Of a stretch of DNA of 54,321 nt, positions 4,684 to 49,723 are shown piece by piece. Source of the DNA: Accumulibacter sp. (lineage in GTDB: Bacteria > Pseudomonadota > Gammaproteobacteria > Burkholderiales > Rhodocyclaceae); assembly GCF_023806625.1 (NCBI RefSeq), contig NZ_JAMTDX010000113.1:1-54321 (forward strand), in the 5' to 3' direction. The notes beneath the pieces are model-generated. The model was given only the letters and a program-made list of their open reading frames with translations, was not told the DNA's origin and made no database searches. Positions within the stretch are counted from its first letter, which is position 1; each line of letters begins with the position of its first letter. The translations under genes and the position numbers were made by a program.

Positions 4684-4692
4684 GTGCATCAA
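4679..4692 (+). promoter_or_regulatory. FNR/FixK-type box TTGA-N6-TCAA
   Basis: TTGACGTGCATCAA matches the FNR consensus TTGAT-N4-ATCAA at 9 of 10 positions. It overlaps the GTG (4684) that opens the next reading frame. No clear -10 hexamer sits at the class II distance on either strand, so the direction of action is uncertain. Confidence 0.4.
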
Positions 4693-5316
4693 ATCTCTTC
4701 AGGGCACCCGCCCCCCGTAACCCCGGCAGTCGGTATCGACGGCCAGACCGTTCACGGCTCGGTCGGGTCGGGCTCTGCCTGCCCACCGATCGACGACGGT
4801 GGAGACCTCGCCGGGGCCGCTGGACGCGACTCGCCGGCTGGTCGCCCAACGCCCCGCAACTTTCTGGTCGACGCGGCGATCCTGCTCGCGCTCTGCGTGA
4901 TCGGCTATACTGGCTACCGGGTCGCCCCGCTGCTGCACCCGAAAACCGATCTCACACTGCCGATCTCGGCGTGCAACGTCGGCGAAGGTCCGTGCACCGC
5001 CCGGCTGCCCGATGGCCGCGAGATCGAGTTGAGCATCCAACCGCGGCCGATCCCGGTGCTCAAGCCGCTACGCATCGAGGCGACCGTGCGCGGCGCCGGT
5101 GTGCGCGGCGTCGACGTGGACTTCGCCGGCACCGAGATGCAGATGGGCTACAACCGGCCGCGCCTCGAACGGCAAAGCGACGACGCATCCCGCTTCGCCG
5201 GCCAGACGAGCCTTCCCGTATGCATCACCGGAACGATGGAATGGGAAGCGACGCTGCTCGTCGACACGGGCCGGACACTCATCGCCATCCCTTTCCGCTT
5301 CGTCAGCAGTCATTAG
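4684..5316 (+). CDS. single-helix membrane protein with periplasmic FixH/YtkA-like domain, function unknown
   Basis: 210 residues if read from GTG 4684. Residues 1-58 are low complexity. One membrane helix at about 60-80 (FLVDAAILLALCVIGYTGY) is followed by a roughly 125-residue domain ending in strands like TMEWEATLLVDTG. The order (helix, beta-rich domain, MxMGYN segment at 152-156, Gly/Trp-containing final strands) resembles FixH/YtkA-like proteins, but this is a weak resemblance. Cys 97, 104 and 180 and Met 152/154 could bind metal. The start is doubtful: no ribosome site precedes it and an FNR-type box overlaps it. It converges on the flavocytochrome gene. Confidence 0.55.
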   Translation: MHQISSGHPPPVTPAVGIDGQTVHGSVGSGSACPPIDDGGDLAGAAGRDSPAGRPTPRNFLVDAAILLALCVIGYTGYRVAPLLHPKTDLTLPISACNVGEGPCTARLPDGREIELSIQPRPIPVLKPLRIEATVRGAGVRGVDVDFAGTEMQMGYNRPRLERQSDDASRFAGQTSLPVCITGTMEWEATLLVDTGRTLIAIPFRFVSSH

Positions 5317-5381: not shown

Positions 5382-6716
5382 TCAGCGCATCTCGAACAGT
5401 TCCTGGTGGAAGCACGCGGCCGGCAGGCCGCGGGCAATGAAGTCGGCACGCAGCGCCCGCCCGAAGGCCGCCGGGCCGCAGAACCAGAGGCTCGCCGACC
5501 GCCACTCGGGCACCACCGCGCGGATGCGCTCGCCGTCGAGCGGTCCGTCCTGCCCATCGACCATCAGATGCAGGCGCACCCGCGCGCCAGCGACGTCGCC
5601 GGCAAGCTTCGCGCTGACCTCCGGACTGATTTCTCTGGTCGGGTGAAACAGGTCGACCGGCCTTTCCTCGGGAGTGGCAGCGAGCTGCTTCATCCGCGCG
5701 ACGAACGGCGTGATGCCGATCCCCGCGCCGATCCAGATCTGGCGCGGCTGTGCATCGTTGAAGTCGAAGCAGCCGTAGGGGCCTTCGACGCTCACCCGCA
5801 TGCCGGCCTTCAGGCGCCGGTGCAGGCGACTCGTGTGGTCGCCGAGTGCCTTGGCGATGAAGCGGATCCGCCGCGTCGCCGGGTCCCATGCCGAGGCGAT
5901 CGTATACGGATGCGCACCTTCGCGGCGGTCCGAGGTGGCGAAGGCGAACTGCCCGGCGGCGTGACCCGGCCAGCCCTCGTCGAGGACGATCAGCACTTCG
6001 AGCACGCGCATCTGCTCATGGTAGTCGAGTTCGACGATCGTTCCGCCGACCCGGCGCCGCGCGCCGATCCGGCCAGCCAGTGACCAGATCGCGGCGACGC
6101 TGCCGCCGGCGAGCAGCACGGCGAGCAGCCAGCCGACCGGCTGGCTCCAGTACGTCGCCCTGGCGAGCACCAGCGAGTGCCAGGCGAGCGCCAGATAGAC
6201 GACCGCAAGCAGCTTGTGCGTCCGCGCGAACAGGTGGTACGGGAAGCGCCTGACCAGCGCGAGGACGATCAGGACCACCGCCGCGTAGAACGCCCACTCG
6301 CCGATCGTCTCGGCGAGGCCACGCTGACTGCGCAGCCAGGCCTCGACGGCGCCGAGTTCGCCGGCCCCCGGCGGCCGGCGCGGCGGCCGGGTCAGCCAGC
6401 CCCAGCCGACCATCCACTTCGTCCCCTGCGCCCACCACCAGTGGACGACCGAAAAGACCAGCCCGGTGACCCCGAGCCACTTGTGCAGCCGATACATCTT
6501 GTCGAGGCCGTCGAGCCACGGCTCGAGCCACTTCGGGCGCAGCGCGAGCAGCATCGCCATACTCATCGCGCCGATCCCGACGATCCCCGTGTACTGCAGG
6601 AACGCGCTGCGGAAGGTGAAGGTGTTCAGCGGCTCGGGGAAGAAGCCGTCGGCGAGCAGCCAGAGCGCCGTCGGCACGAGCAGCGCGGCGAGAAACGCGT
6701 AGCGGATCGGGTTCAT
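5382..6716 (-). CDS. ferric-reductase-like membrane flavocytochrome (FRE/NOX superfamily)
   Basis: 444 residues. About six N-terminal helices contain His 78, 92, 167 and 180, candidates for ligands of two b hemes. A ferredoxin-reductase module follows, with the FAD-binding HPYT at 269-272, an NAD(P) pocket around IGAGIGITPF and a C-terminal CGP (WFCGPAAF). Such proteins carry electrons from cytosolic NAD(P)H across the membrane. The start lies 3 bp after the stop of the radical SAM gene, so it is the last gene of the cyclophane operon. It may export electrons, or supply or remove them for the modified peptide; that link is inferred from the operon only. Confidence 0.8.
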   Translation of the reverse strand: MNPIRYAFLAALLVPTALWLLADGFFPEPLNTFTFRSAFLQYTGIVGIGAMSMAMLLALRPKWLEPWLDGLDKMYRLHKWLGVTGLVFSVVHWWWAQGTKWMVGWGWLTRPPRRPPGAGELGAVEAWLRSQRGLAETIGEWAFYAAVVLIVLALVRRFPYHLFARTHKLLAVVYLALAWHSLVLARATYWSQPVGWLLAVLLAGGSVAAIWSLAGRIGARRRVGGTIVELDYHEQMRVLEVLIVLDEGWPGHAAGQFAFATSDRREGAHPYTIASAWDPATRRIRFIAKALGDHTSRLHRRLKAGMRVSVEGPYGCFDFNDAQPRQIWIGAGIGITPFVARMKQLAATPEERPVDLFHPTREISPEVSAKLAGDVAGARVRLHLMVDGQDGPLDGERIRAVVPEWRSASLWFCGPAAFGRALRADFIARGLPAACFHQELFEMR

Positions 6717-6719
6717 CGC

Positions 6720-7898
6720 TTACGCCAGTGCGGAGATCGGGCTCTGCTGGGCGGCAAGGCGGCCGGCCACCGCCTGCCGCGCGAGCCCGACCGCCGCGTC
6801 CTCCATCTGCCGGAAGAGCGCCTTGTACAGCGCGCAGTACGGATCAGTCTCGGTCAGCCGGCCGTGGAACGCGAACGTGCGGATCGGGCAGCCTCCGTGA
6901 CACAGCGCGAGATACTCGCAGTCGATGCACGCACGCCGGGCGAGATGGATCGGCCGTTCGCCGAACTGCCGGCGCGCCGCGCTGCCGTCGAGCAGCTCGG
7001 CGAGCGTCGCCGAGGCGAACAGATTGCCGAACCGGTAGTCCGGGTGACTGGTCACCCAGCAGTCGCACTGCGCGACATGGCCGCGAGCGTCGATGGCGAT
7101 CAGCCGATCGACGCAGTTGTCGCCCCAGAAGCACGGCAGCGCCGCCGGCCGGTCGCTGAAATGGTCGAGCAGCGCGTCGAACGGAGCGATGCGCACGCCC
7201 TGCTCGCGCCCGCGCTCGAGCCAGATCGCCGCCAGGTCTTGGTGGAAGCGCAGCAGTTCGGCGTGATGCCGCTCGTCGATCGTCCGCCCCGGGTCGTCGG
7301 CCGCACCACCAGGGAACGGCGTGTTGATCTGGATCTGGTCGAGGCCGAGTTCATCGACCAGGTGTTCGTAGAAGCGCCCGGCGCCGATCGCCAGCGTCGC
7401 CTCGTTGGGCAGCGAGATCACCTCGACGCGGATCCCCGCCGCGCGCGCCTCGTCGAGCTTGCGCCGCCAGAGCACGTCGTAGTGCGCCGGACTCCTCCCG
7501 CGCAGCTGGCGGTGGAGGTTAGGGTAGTCGAGCGAACTGCCGATGCAGTTGCCGAACATCCGCTCGATCACCGGGTTCCACTCGCGACCGTAGGCGAGCA
7601 GGTTGGACTGCAACAGGTGGCGCACCTCGATAGCGCGCGCCGCCGCTGCTTCGCCGATCAGCTCGCCGGCCGCGTCGTACCACTCCGGCGGCAGCAGCAT
7701 CGCCTCGCCGCCCTGCCAGTAGATGGCCAGCGAGGCAAGCCGCCGGCCGGCCATGTACTCGAGCACCCGCTCGATCAGCACGCGCAGCCCTTCGAGGCTC
7801 AGCCGATCGCGAGTCCGCCGCTCGAAGCAGTAGCTGCACGCCGCGTTGCACTGCAGCGTTGGCAGCAGGATCAGCGCCAGCTGCCCGCCGCCGTTCAC
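6720..7898 (-). CDS. radical SAM/SPASM peptide maturase (GrrM-like, putative cyclophane synthase)
   Basis: 392 residues from GTG 7898. This start is chosen because it overlaps the upstream stop as GTGA and sits just before the core; the frame stays open upstream to 7997 but encodes only Arg-rich filler. The radical SAM cluster is C17-x3-C21-x2-C24 in LQCNAACSYCFE. The C-terminal part has a SPASM pattern: QCDCW, then C-x2-C-x5-C-x3-C in CIDCEYLALCHGGC, then a final PYC. SPASM maturases modify ribosomal peptides. With a W-x-N repeat precursor in the same operon, the likely reaction is a C-C crosslink between Trp and Asn side chains (three-residue cyclophane), as known for Xye/Grr/Fxs systems. 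The modification itself is inferred. Confidence 0.8.
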   Translation of the reverse strand: MNGGGQLALILLPTLQCNAACSYCFERRTRDRLSLEGLRVLIERVLEYMAGRRLASLAIYWQGGEAMLLPPEWYDAAGELIGEAAAARAIEVRHLLQSNLLAYGREWNPVIERMFGNCIGSSLDYPNLHRQLRGRSPAHYDVLWRRKLDEARAAGIRVEVISLPNEATLAIGAGRFYEHLVDELGLDQIQINTPFPGGAADDPGRTIDERHHAELLRFHQDLAAIWLERGREQGVRIAPFDALLDHFSDRPAALPCFWGDNCVDRLIAIDARGHVAQCDCWVTSHPDYRFGNLFASATLAELLDGSAARRQFGERPIHLARRACIDCEYLALCHGGCPIRTFAFHGRLTETDPYCALYKALFRQMEDAAVGLARQAVAGRLAAQQSPISALA

Positions 7899-8716
7899 CG
7901 GTCCCCCGCGGCGAGTTCGTCGAACGCGGCGAGGTCGGCGCGCAGCTCGTCGGCCGCGGCGCTCAGGCGGTCGAGGACCTCGCGAATCCCGGCGCACGAA
8001 TAGCCCGGATCAGGCCACTTGAAATAGCCGAGGCAACCCTTGGCGAACGGGCACGCGCGGCACTCGCCATCACCGGCGAAGCGCGCGGCCACCGCGCCGG
8101 CCTGATCCTCGCCGCTCGCCGCCAGACGAGCGCCGCCGAGGCGTACCGGCAGGCGCTCCTCGCCGAGCGCATCGACTTCGCGGAACAGCGCCGGGTCATC
8201 CTCGGCGATCGCCCAGAGCGAGAACGGCTCGCCACGCAGCAGCGCGTTCAGCACCCCCTGGAAAGGCTCGACCGGAACGGCGACCGTCGACCCGTGCAGG
8301 AAGCGACTGAGCACCTCGGCGAGCTCGTCGATCGGCTCCGGACCCGGCTGCCCGATCTGCAGACGGACCGGCAGCTGCAGGCTGACGGCGAGGCGGACGG
8401 CCCGACCGAAGCCCTCGACGACCGGGATCGTGATGCGCACCGGCGCGTAGTCGACGAGCGGCGAACACGCGTAGAGCAGCGGATAGTCGTTCGCCGGATC
8501 AGCGAGCCGAAAATCGATCGGCGCACCACCGCGCCAGCCGGCGAGTTCGCCGGCGGTCTGCGGTGAGAGCGGCATCTCCAGATGGACCAGGCCCGCGGGC
8601 GGATCCACGCAGACCGTGGCCAGGCCGGCCACGTCGTCGACGCGCACGATGACCGGCTCACCCGACCAGCCGGCAAGCCGCGTCGCCGGCACGCGGTAGA
8701 CGATCCCGGCGGTCAA
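7895..8716 (-). CDS. Cys-rich companion protein of the cyclophane operon, function unknown
   Basis: 273 residues from TTG 8716; the only other early start is GTG eight codons in. I recognise no named family. The body is beta-rich with many Pro/Val/Leu and no radical SAM motif. The C-terminal part has C219-x2-C222-x5-C228-x12-C241, the spacing of the first three Cys in the SPASM motif C-x2-C-x5-C, so it may hold an auxiliary Fe-S cluster. A charged helix (about 245-270) ends the protein. The gene lies between precursor and maturase, overlaps the maturase start by 4 bp (GTGA), and shares the reading frame of the precursor across a TAG. It is plausibly a precursor-recognition or partner subunit. 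Confidence 0.65.
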   Translation of the reverse strand: MTAGIVYRVPATRLAGWSGEPVIVRVDDVAGLATVCVDPPAGLVHLEMPLSPQTAGELAGWRGGAPIDFRLADPANDYPLLYACSPLVDYAPVRITIPVVEGFGRAVRLAVSLQLPVRLQIGQPGPEPIDELAEVLSRFLHGSTVAVPVEPFQGVLNALLRGEPFSLWAIAEDDPALFREVDALGEERLPVRLGGARLAASGEDQAGAVAARFAGDGECRACPFAKGCLGYFKWPDPGYSCAGIREVLDRLSAAADELRADLAAFDELAAGDR

Positions 8717-8737
8717 CGGCTCGCGCCGGCGGCCCGC

Positions 8738-9148
8738 CTAGCGGTTGACCCAGGCACCGCCGCGATTGGCCCAGGCCCGGCCGCCGTTGACCCAGGCGCC
8801 GCCGCGGTTGGCCCAGGCCCGGCCACCGTTGGCCCAGGCGCCGCCACGGTTGACCCAGGTGCCGCCGCTGGTCGCCGCGCCGCCGCGGTTGACCCACGCC
8901 GCACCACGGTTGGCCCACGCCCGCCCGCCGTTCGCCCAGGCGACGCCGGCGATCGCCGCGCCTTCGCGATCGAGCAGACTGCCGCCGAAGAGCGCCACCG
9001 CGACCACCGCCTTCGACCACTTGCCGAGGCTCAGCAGGAACTCCCGCCGATCCGGCAACGATTCTGCGTCCTCTACCCCGTCGCCGCCCGCGGAAAGCTG
9101 TCCAGCCTCAGGCTGCCCTGTTCTCGTCTTGTCCTGTTCGCTGCTCAT
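8738..9148 (-). CDS. RiPP precursor with Tat-type leader and nine W-x-N repeats
   Basis: 136 residues. Residues 1-30 are polar. RREFLL (34-39) followed by a hydrophobic stretch AVVAVALFGGSLL (48-59, approximately) matches a twin-arginine signal. From residue 71 to the end the protein is a near-perfect heptad repeat: W-A/V-N then GGRA or RGGA. Trp sits at 71, 78, 85, 98, 105, 112, 119, 126 and 133; one unit (92-97) is degenerate and lacks Trp. Aromatic-x-Asn is the substrate motif of three-residue-cyclophane maturases, and Gly/Arg/Asn-rich repeats recall GrrA. ATG 9148 is preceded by an AGAGGT site. The next two genes encode a companion and the SPASM enzyme. If correct, a multiply crosslinked, already rigid peptide would be exported by Tat. 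Confidence 0.8.
   Translation of the reverse strand: MSSEQDKTRTGQPEAGQLSAGGDGVEDAESLPDRREFLLSLGKWSKAVVAVALFGGSLLDREGAAIAGVAWANGGRAWANRGAAWVNRGGAATSGGTWVNRGGAWANGGRAWANRGGAWVNGGRAWANRGGAWVNR
8741..8938 (-). repeat. 21-bp tandem coding repeat of the W-x-N precursor
   Basis: About nine copies of a 21-bp GC-rich unit encode the heptads WANRGGA, WVNRGGA and WANGGRA. The units alternate irregularly, and one 18-bp degenerate unit (residues 92-97) breaks the period. Such arrays expand and contract by slippage, so copy number may differ between strains. Confidence 0.85.
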
Positions 9149-9307: not shown

Positions 9308-9384
9308 GGAAAAAAGGGGACGGAAAAAAGGGGACAGACCCCGTTTTCTGCCCTGCAGAAAACGGGGTCTGTCCCCTTTTTTCC
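9308..9384. repeat. REP-like palindrome, copy 1
   Basis: Arms of 30 nt at 9322-9351 and 9355-9384 pair perfectly around a 3-nt loop; the core is GGGGACAGACCCC/GGGGTCTGTCCCC. A 14-bp direct duplication of the arm start lies at 9308-9321. It sits between the divergent cyclophane promoter and the hemerythrin stop codon and could also end transcription, since T-runs flank both arms. Confidence 0.8.
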
Positions 9385-10142: not shown

Positions 10143-10209
10143 AAAAATGGGGACAGACCACGTTTTCTGCCCGTTTTCTCCCGGGGAAATGGGGTCTGTC
10201 CCCATTTTT
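10143..10209. repeat. REP-like palindrome, copy 2
   Basis: Outer arms AAAAATGGGGACAGACC and GGTCTGTCCCCATTTTT pair over about 17 bp, with an imperfect inner part holding TTTTCT and GGGGAAA segments. It shares the GGGACAGACC core with the element at 9308-9384, so the two belong to one repeat family. Confidence 0.75.
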
Positions 10210-48709: not shown

Positions 48710-49723
48710 TCAGCCGGCGACGAGGTCGACCACCGGATGCGCCGAAGCGACCGTGCTGTCGGTACCGAGAGCCCCACCGCAGCTCGACCCCTGCCCCGCG
48801 GTACAGCCAAAGCAGTGGCCGGCGACGACGATCGGCCTGCCGGCGAGCAGCGCAGCGCTCGCCTCGCTGATGTGCAGCCGACGCCCAGCGCGTCGAGTCA
48901 TCGGCAGCCCGAGCTGTTGATTGAAGTCGCAGTCGTAGAGGAAGCCCTGCCAGTCGACCGACAGCAGATCCCGGCACATGACGCGGTCGACGTTCTCGTC
49001 GCGATGCGCCAGCCTCAGGAGTTGCAGGTAGGCGTCGAACTCCCCCCTGGAGACGAGCAGCGATCCGAAACGCTGGATCGGCATGTTCGCCAGCGTGAAC
49101 AACTCGTTGAAGACGATGCCCAGGCTGCCGAGATGGCTGCGGTAGGCCGCGGCGAGCGGGCCCTGCGGCGGCGGCAGGACCGGCCCCTGCGGGTTGTAGA
49201 CGAGGTTCAGGACCAGACCGCTTTCGGGGGCGCCATAGCCGAGCGCATTCAGCCGTCGCAGGCCGCGCAGACTGGCGGCAAAGGTGCCCCGACCGCGCTG
49301 CCGGTCGACGTTCTCCTCGAGATAGCAGGGAAGCGACCCGACGACTTCGACCCGCTGTGCCGCCAGAAAATCGGCCAGGTCGTCGTGCCCCGCTTCTTCG
49401 AGAATCGTCAGGTTACAGCGGTCGATCACCCGCAAGCCCCGCTGCCTGCCGGCGACGACGAGCTCGCGGAAGTGCGGGTTCAGCTCGGGTGCGCCACCGG
49501 TGACGTCGAGAACCTTCACTTCCGGGCTGCATTCGACGAAAGCGAGAATCGCGTCGATCGTCTCGCGCGTCATTTCTTCGCTGCGCTGCGGCCCCGCGTT
49601 GACGTGGCAATGCACGCAGCTCTGATTGCAGCGGTAGCCGAGATTGACCTGCAGCGTTTCGACCGAACGCCGCTGGAGAGCCGGAAAGCTGGTCCTTTCG
49701 AGGAGAGGCAGGGTCGGATGCAT
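48710..49723 (-). CDS. ArsS-like radical SAM protein (arsenosugar biosynthesis type)
   Basis: 337 residues. The cluster motif C-x3-C-x2-C is in GYRCNQSCVHCHVNAGP, and the C-terminal DUF3641-type region has CRDLLSVDWQGFLYDCDFNQ and a Cys-rich end (GHCFGCTAGQGSSCGG). ArsS attaches the 5-deoxyadenosyl group to dimethylarsinous acid. No arsenic genes are in the window, so another small-molecule role is possible. An inverted repeat TTGAC-TG-GTCAA lies at 49746-49757 just upstream. Confidence 0.85.
   Translation of the reverse strand: MHPTLPLLERTSFPALQRRSVETLQVNLGYRCNQSCVHCHVNAGPQRSEEMTRETIDAILAFVECSPEVKVLDVTGGAPELNPHFRELVVAGRQRGLRVIDRCNLTILEEAGHDDLADFLAAQRVEVVGSLPCYLEENVDRQRGRGTFAASLRGLRRLNALGYGAPESGLVLNLVYNPQGPVLPPPQGPLAAAYRSHLGSLGIVFNELFTLANMPIQRFGSLLVSRGEFDAYLQLLRLAHRDENVDRVMCRDLLSVDWQGFLYDCDFNQQLGLPMTRRAGRRLHISEASAALLAGRPIVVAGHCFGCTAGQGSSCGGALGTDSTVASAHPVVDLVAG

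Follow-up and report, generated by a model that had tools for sequence, protein, structure and literature searches.

A candidate triceptide-type RiPP operon with a putative pseudo-radical SAM partner in Accumulibacter and other bacterial groups

The window analysed here is the whole of a 54,321-nucleotide stretch of Accumulibacter sp. DNA (contig NZ_JAMTDX010000113.1 of assembly GCF_023806625.1, a genome of 4.09 Mb in 114 contigs). Between positions 5382 and 9148 it carries four consecutive minus-strand genes, encoding a precursor peptide, a companion protein, a radical S-adenosylmethionine (SAM) enzyme of the SPASM type (rSAM), and a ferric-reductase-like membrane protein. The operon is read here as one for a ribosomally synthesized and post-translationally modified peptide (RiPP) of the triceptide type, in which the rSAM and a pseudo-SAM partner would make cyclophanes of Trp-x-Asn motifs and the precursor leader would double as a signal of the twin-arginine translocation (Tat) type; a probability of about 0.67 is assigned to this reading. 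The genes are tightly joined, with a gap of 21 bp between precursor and companion, a GTGA overlap between companion and rSAM, and a gap of 3 bp between rSAM and ferric-reductase-like gene. These coordinates and junctions agree with an earlier note made on the same DNA from the sequence alone.

The precursor, companion and rSAM genes form a conserved set. The examined collection comprises 40 rows, namely 39 loci and the window, once duplicates had been removed: L073, L075, L076, L081, L088, L091, L092, L094, and L095, whose contigs were judged by length to be in the set already, and L033, a repeat of L010. The companion is present in 39 rows, the rSAM in 38, the precursor leader profile in 35, and a SnoaL-like gene in 30, and wherever each is present the order SnoaL-like gene, precursor, companion, rSAM is fixed. 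The precursor-companion-rSAM set is found in Accumulibacter, Chromatiaceae, Thermodesulfobacteriota, Myxococcota, and Pyrinomonadales. Rows missing one of these three genes lie at a contig end (L014, L089, L101), consist of a fragment (L079), or hold broken genes (L026, L090), and all of these except L101 lack the leader. Companion and rSAM genes overlap or lie no more than 7 nt apart in 36 of the 37 rows that have the pair (the exception being L026), as judged roughly from the positions of profile matches. The distance matrices of the two proteins are correlated (r = 0.90, 30 loci; 0 of 2,000 permutations as high), a value partly due to shared species history. Since the set recurs in several phyla, the lack of a conserved neighbourhood in relatives, one of the two findings that the earlier note had named as fatal to its interpretation, was not encountered. 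The conserved neighbourhood of these three genes supports that interpretation in part; a role of the ferric reductase as a component of the system is not supported. The likely degenerate radical SAM/SPASM nature of the companion, the Tat-like look of the leader, and the SnoaL-like gene in the clusters of most relatives are absent from the note.

The core of the precursor is dominated by a single repeated motif. All nine W-x-N motifs claimed for the window precursor are present, and no core Trp or Asn lies outside them; the units stand 7 residues apart except for one 13-residue step, and across 15 precursors the spacing ranges from 4 to 18. When the window core was shuffled 10,000 times the number of W-x-N motifs averaged 1.1 and reached at most 6, against 9 observed. 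Among 35 precursors, a count that takes in near-identical rows and is therefore not one of independent sequences, W-x-N takes in 210 of the 218 Trp and 210 of the 215 Asn of the cores, with V, A, I, or L as the middle residue in 199 of the 210 units. Shuffling these 35 cores 1,000 times gave a mean of 23.6 motifs and a maximum of 42, against 210 observed. The eight core Trp outside W-x-N comprise three in W-x-D (L074, L077, L080), three in W-G-G (L011, L012, L086), and two at the C-terminus (L022, L099). A Trp paired with Asn at position +2, with Asp in three of the eight exceptions, is what a Trp-to-Asn/Asp crosslink predicts. The Trp of the leader precedes S or P in all 35 precursors, and never x-N.

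The rSAM has the cysteine sets of a radical SAM/SPASM enzyme. The window protein contains C17-x3-C21-x2-C24, a GGE motif, a full set of SPASM cysteines, and D279. The cysteines of CX3CX2C, those of the SPASM region, C280, and D279 are conserved in 34 of 34 full-length rSAMs (rSAM pieces below 340 residues and companions below 250 residues were omitted, with 34 of each used). The nearest solved structure in a profile comparison is the anaerobic sulfatase maturase anSME (4k36, E 1.5e-26), and D279 aligns with a catalytic Asp of anSME. The AlphaFold model (pLDDT, the predicted local distance difference test, 87.4) likewise retrieves anSME at the top of a Foldseek search, followed by RiPP maturases that include a ChlB-leader complex. 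The DynA, GrrM/OscB, and AmcB models match all 16 rSAMs scanned (E ≤1e-10). Among the NCBIfam matches listed for the window rSAM (25 of 51), only the cut-off of a SPASM domain model is passed, and its scores are far under the cut-offs of GrrM/OscB, DynA, DarE, DarW, and AmcB.

The companion is most likely a degenerate, or pseudo-, radical SAM/SPASM protein, an assignment made at moderate scores from the agreement of sequence-profile and fold comparison. The earlier note called it unrecognised and Cys-rich; the window protein indeed matches no Pfam or NCBIfam model, and the second label is a mild overstatement for six cysteines in 273 residues, four of them conserved. Alignment with hhalign matches companion residues 94-260 to rSAM residues 190-374 (E 3e-5) and pairs C219, C222, C228, and C241 with C324, C327, C333, and C355 of the rSAM, C337 falling on a gap; the equivalents of these four rSAM cysteines in anSME are the ligands of the second auxiliary cluster (Aux II). 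The four companion cysteines are kept in 33, 34, 34, and 33 of 34 companions, respectively, and CX3CX2C occurs in none of the 34. The structural model (pLDDT 86.9) consists of six strand-helix units and, beyond the last Cys, ends in a long helix, and on this ground a winged-helix RiPP recognition element (RRE) was rejected as its identity. In a Foldseek search anSMEcpe occupies ranks 1 and 2 (probability 1.00 and 0.99; TMq 0.56 and 0.52) and PqqE rank 7. A partial TIM barrel followed by a SPASM-type Cys region, the arrangement that defines the radical SAM/SPASM fold, is thus found in the companion, with moderate scores.

The leader may direct export by the Tat route. Tat signal peptides carry a twin-arginine motif resembling (S/T)RRxFLK. 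In all 35 leaders RR-x-F is present, the twin arginine expected of a Tat substrate; it is followed by L in 34 and F in one, preceded by S in 14 and T in one, and the FL is followed by K or R in seven. Next come W-S or W-P and a stretch of weak hydrophobicity. An A-x-A sequence stands shortly ahead of the first core Trp in 27 of the 35 leaders, and A67 is invariant in a 15-row alignment. From these features the leader is inferred to be a Tat-type signal peptide. TIGR04117, a model for predicted rSAM targets that have Cys-Xaa-Xaa-Xaa repeats, weakly matches three of 15 leaders (L023, L024, L025; 13-15 bits), so that one leader type possibly serves different cores; no TIGR04117 member was found in 55 genomes, in a search that gave no signal anywhere.

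Taken together, the following sequence of events is proposed. Residues 1-67 of the precursor would act as the recognition leader and, most likely, as the Tat-type signal. In the cytoplasm the rSAM would cleave SAM and abstract a hydrogen from the beta-carbon of the Asn of each W-x-N, and the resulting Asn radical would add to the Trp indole to close a three-residue cyclophane, with a loss of 2 Da per ring and up to nine rings in the window precursor. The companion would be a catalytically dead subunit that has lost the SAM-cleaving cluster and the ligands of the first auxiliary cluster (Aux I) and kept the four cysteines matching Aux II; in complex with the rSAM it would probably hold the leader or carry off the electron that each ring closure sets free. 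Export of the crosslinked peptide and cleavage after A-x-A would follow. PapB is reported to need intermolecular electron transfer between turnovers, likely through AC2, the second auxiliary cluster (PMC10470005). By analogy, a partner with such a cluster site might serve a multi-ring enzyme, and the cluster site of the companion might be used for electron return. A more far-reaching version is possible, if rather doubtful as a whole: the cyclophane synthase would have two subunits, one of them a pseudo-radical-SAM protein with a single Aux II-type cluster that serves as the obligate electron-returning partner, and would make up to eleven Trp-Asn rings per peptide. The multi-ring rod would leave by the Tat route with its leader as the signal, would need neither a transporter nor a protease of its own, and in most species would meet a SnoaL-like partner outside.

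Several observations weigh against the triceptide-type reading or parts of it. The W-x-N pairing could be explained by structure alone. In L026 and L090, both with broken genes, the maturation genes are kept and no precursor is detected between the SnoaL-like gene and the companion. For the leader, a simple test finds no A-x-A ahead of the first core Trp in six of 35 (L016, L022, L087, L098, L100, L101), and L013 and L099 have it only within the core; the Tat models TIGR01409 and PF10518 each match one of 15 members, the former at 12.2 bits against a cut-off of 16.7 and the latter at E 0.29. For the companion, the hhalign probability is 73 from two shallow profiles, none of the Foldseek hits reaches E ≤ 0.001 (best 4.5e-3, root-mean-square deviation 6.3), the remaining hits mix aldolase-type barrels with unrelated proteins at weak scores, and its profile matches nothing meaningful among sequences of the PDB (best E 0.37). 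GGE, a SAM-binding motif, occurs in seven of 34 companions, just ahead of the Cys motif in five and at unrelated places in two. The window rSAM itself is under the Pfam cut-offs of Radical_SAM (20.8 against 29.5 bits) and SPASM (20.4 against 21.5).

Other accounts of the same genes can be given. The system could simply be a divergent GrrA/GrrM (OscA/OscB) triceptide system with the companion as an accessory, since the GrrA model TIGR04260 weakly matches the core of 11 of 15 precursors (27.0 bits at most), the GrrM model matches 16 of 16 rSAMs, and W-x-N and W-x-D are both compatible with OscB. This is nevertheless unlikely: the window precursor scores 16.9 bits and the best of 10 further precursors 27.0 against a cut-off of 31 (the window and seven of the ten were matched, three were not), the match is confined to the repeat half of the model, the window rSAM reaches 69.5 bits against 310 for GrrM (TIGR04261), behind the anSME, DarW, and DynA models, and the window companion matches no NCBIfam model. 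Membership of GrrA/GrrM was rejected on the scores of precursor and maturase, both under cut-off. The rSAM might instead perform some other reaction on W-x-N, such as a different linkage or ring size, hydroxylation, or epimerisation; its best-scoring named model, at 107.7 bits, is the anaerobic sulfatase maturase and not a cyclophane enzyme, and D279 is located where anSME has its Asp. That Trp is almost always paired with Asn two positions on, and that Asp takes this place in some of the exceptions, argues for the Trp-Asn/Asp crosslink and leaves this alternative with a rather small share of the probability. Gly/Ala-rich repeats are common in structural proteins, and the precursor could be read as an unmodified, Gly-rich exported structural protein with the rSAM acting elsewhere. 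Its core is Gly/Ala-rich and repetitive, and its Pfam hits, weak ones to Inhibitor_I36 and a keratin tail, look compositional. Yet the precursor lies next to the two maturation genes in 35 of 40 rows, and W-x-N stays constant at a spacing that varies, which makes an unmodified structural protein very improbable.

The roles of the two remaining proteins can also be drawn differently. The companion may be a leader-binding subunit only, standing in for an RRE and having no redox role, its cysteines binding a structural cluster or zinc. This is plausible, at somewhat less than even odds, and compatible with the crosslinking part of the triceptide-type reading: no PqqD-like domain is found in the four window proteins (by Pfam, and by NCBIfam among the matches listed), and most rows have leader and companion alike. 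On the other side, the four cysteines fall on the Aux II sites of SPASM proteins, which suggests a cluster. As for the ferric-reductase-like protein, the label itself is borne out by PF01794 (67.4 bits against a cut-off of 28), and a working part in feeding or draining electrons could be argued from the 3-bp junction with the rSAM and from a remote relative (30-31% identity, about 1.1 kb downstream of the rSAM) in L010, the nearest relative of the window. Such a part is highly improbable. Among the 32 of 38 rSAM-bearing rows with at least 1.5 kb beyond the rSAM, a ferric-reductase relative is found in two, the window and L010, and not in the other 30. All 28 genomes of the genus, the window's own among them, carry relatives of the protein; the closest others, at 55% (G601) and 53% (G593), belong to genomes lacking the companion, and the window's own genome holds a second PF01794 protein. 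On these grounds the ferric reductase was rejected as a conserved part. Judged by position, the gene would share the operon transcript, and it most likely rides along as a passenger or was added locally.

Among known systems, the triceptides, made by three-residue cyclophane forming enzymes (3-CyFE) such as OscB/GrrM and XncB, are the closest in layout, with a SPASM-type rSAM beside a Trp-x-Asn/Asp precursor (PMC11002830). OscB is reported to link Trp C7 to the Cbeta of Asn or Asp, and XncB to link Trp C6 to Arg or Asn (PMC11002830), and as the present cores contain W-x-N with occasional W-x-D, OscB is the best fit. Two marks of a triceptide system are found here, namely a precursor with aromatic-x-residue motifs next to a SPASM-type rSAM, and an rSAM with CX3CX2C and all SPASM cysteines (34 of 34); a third, a C-C bond from the aromatic ring to Cbeta at position i+2, is predicted. 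The system differs from OscB/GrrM in that rSAM and precursor are under the GrrM/GrrA cut-offs, and may differ from 3-CyFE systems in its putative pseudo-SAM companion, its RR-x-F leader, and the upstream SnoaL-like gene of most relatives. It is classed here as triceptide-like in working and not as a member of GrrA/GrrM.

Dynobactin and darobactin are short antibiotic peptides. The models of their maturases (DynA, DarE, DarW) match 16 of 16 rSAMs; the window rSAM scores 101.3, 84.3, and 104.4 bits, respectively, and does not reach the cut-offs of 450, 650, and 650, and the window-type precursor, unlike those peptides, is a long repeat protein. The anSME proteins are the nearest solved relatives of the rSAM in sequence and fold and of the companion in fold, although the window rSAM remains below their cut-off of 349 bits and a dedicated repeat precursor sets the present system apart. 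The names of HxsB/HxsC, the GeoRSP SPASM protein, and the TIGR04347 pseudo-SAM/SPASM protein imply two SPASM-type or pseudo-SAM proteins per peptide system. Set against these, the companion is without CX3CX2C; two of 15 companions touch the end of the HxsC model TIGR03977 over about 20 residues (best 16.0 bits against 267.9), and GeoRSP and TIGR04347 find no match among the 15 even at E 1. Peptides with Aro-Xaa-Asn are reported in two clusters of a SPASM similarity network (PMC9062424); these are possibly the same family. Among the matches listed in a full-text literature search, in which subscription journals were mostly outside the scope, no paper describes the precursor-companion-rSAM set. 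A new triceptide-like family is the best reading.

The distribution of the system is patchy. An rSAM-based scan gave 18 loci. The companion profile retrieved relatives in four of 28 genomes of the genus, three of 297 of the family, one of 398 of the phylum (the window's own only), 18 of 194 Chromatiaceae (the family of L011's genome), eight of 55 in the class of L023's genome, and six of 119 in the order of L016's genome (a Pyrinomonadaceae record), counts that are possibly low as several searches scored part of the first-look candidates. A single companion sequence searched against 300 genomes of the order matched its own genome only. In a tree of 34 rSAM rows, some of them labelled by the taxon of the search that retrieved them, the window and L010 cluster with five Chromatiaceae rows (support 100/99) and the other two Accumulibacter rows, L019 and L034, with Thermodesulfobacteriota and Myxococcota (100/99). 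The presence of two separate versions of the system inside Accumulibacter suggests transfer between bacterial groups. Companion relatives in viral_contigs amounted to 44 pattern matches with none confirmed, and the plasmid collection yielded none with the window companion as the only query; phage or plasmid spread was rejected on these results. A defence system was also rejected: the PADLOC hits of the rSAM are limited to viperin and weak, at 16.9 bits or less. In one genome, G1055, the system occurs twice in complete form, with a companion fragment in addition (L077, L078, L079).

The SnoaL-like gene (SnoaL_3/DUF4440, an NTF2-like family) lies upstream of the precursor, for example at L013:2271-2777 and L022:3179-3646. 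It was not found in seven rows that extend 1.2 kb or more beyond the leader match on the upstream side (the window, L010, L015, L027, L082, L083, L085), nor in L079, a fragment, or L014 and L089, at contig ends. All three SnoaL-like proteins scanned pass the PF13474 cut-off, and from their N-termini they are apparently exported. Neighbours were compared in 19 sequences (18 loci and the window, about 5 kb per side where present) with a gene caller that misses genes: it picked up SnoaL in eight loci, and tblastn in 14 of 18. Within this limit, neither a transporter nor a protease common to the loci turned up. The only other family joining unrelated groups there is a loose cluster like sensor kinases and response regulators (nine ORFs, or open reading frames, in L017, L018, L021, L023, and L026; 24-29% identity between groups), which was discounted because such genes are common and their positions differ.

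The features of the operon are collected in Table 1; the mechanically called ORF of the rSAM extends beyond the GTG-started gene listed there. Downstream, the next likely gene is a plus-strand ORF at 4684-5316, convergent with the operon and without a Pfam match, and an ORF with a hemerythrin domain lies upstream. Directly upstream of the operon, positions 9330-9376 hold a palindromic repeat made of two inverted copies of GGGGACAGACCCCGTTTTCTGC, with a third copy (one mismatch) at 10149-10170; no copy is expected by chance, and the repeat looks like an element of the REP (repetitive extragenic palindromic) type. Elsewhere in the window, positions 48713-49723 on the minus strand encode another radical SAM protein, one that has a DUF3641 domain, and no tie to the operon was seen.

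Table 1. Genes of the operon and parts of their products, with positions in the window.
Feature	Position	Strand	Description
Precursor gene	8738..9148	minus	ATG start, 136 aa, nine W-x-N units
Leader, residues 1-67	8948..9148	minus	RR-x-F (34-37), W44-S45, weakly hydrophobic stretch, A-I-A ending at A67
Core, residues 68-136	8741..8947	minus	Gly/Ala-rich, nine W-[AV]-N units
Companion gene	7895..8716	minus	TTG start, 273 aa
C219, C222, C228, C241 of companion	within 7895..8716	minus	places of the putative Aux II-type cluster site
rSAM gene	6720..7898	minus	GTG start, 392 aa
Ferric-reductase-like gene	5382..6716	minus	ATG start, 444 aa, membrane protein with FAD/NAD domain

If the triceptide-type reading is true, a multi-ring RiPP family spread across several phyla would be added to those described, and with a Tat-type leader the crosslinked peptide would be exported by a general route. 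The system would also offer a natural test of what auxiliary clusters in SPASM enzymes do, as a cluster site seemingly placed on a separate, dead subunit could be removed or swapped with the active enzyme left untouched.

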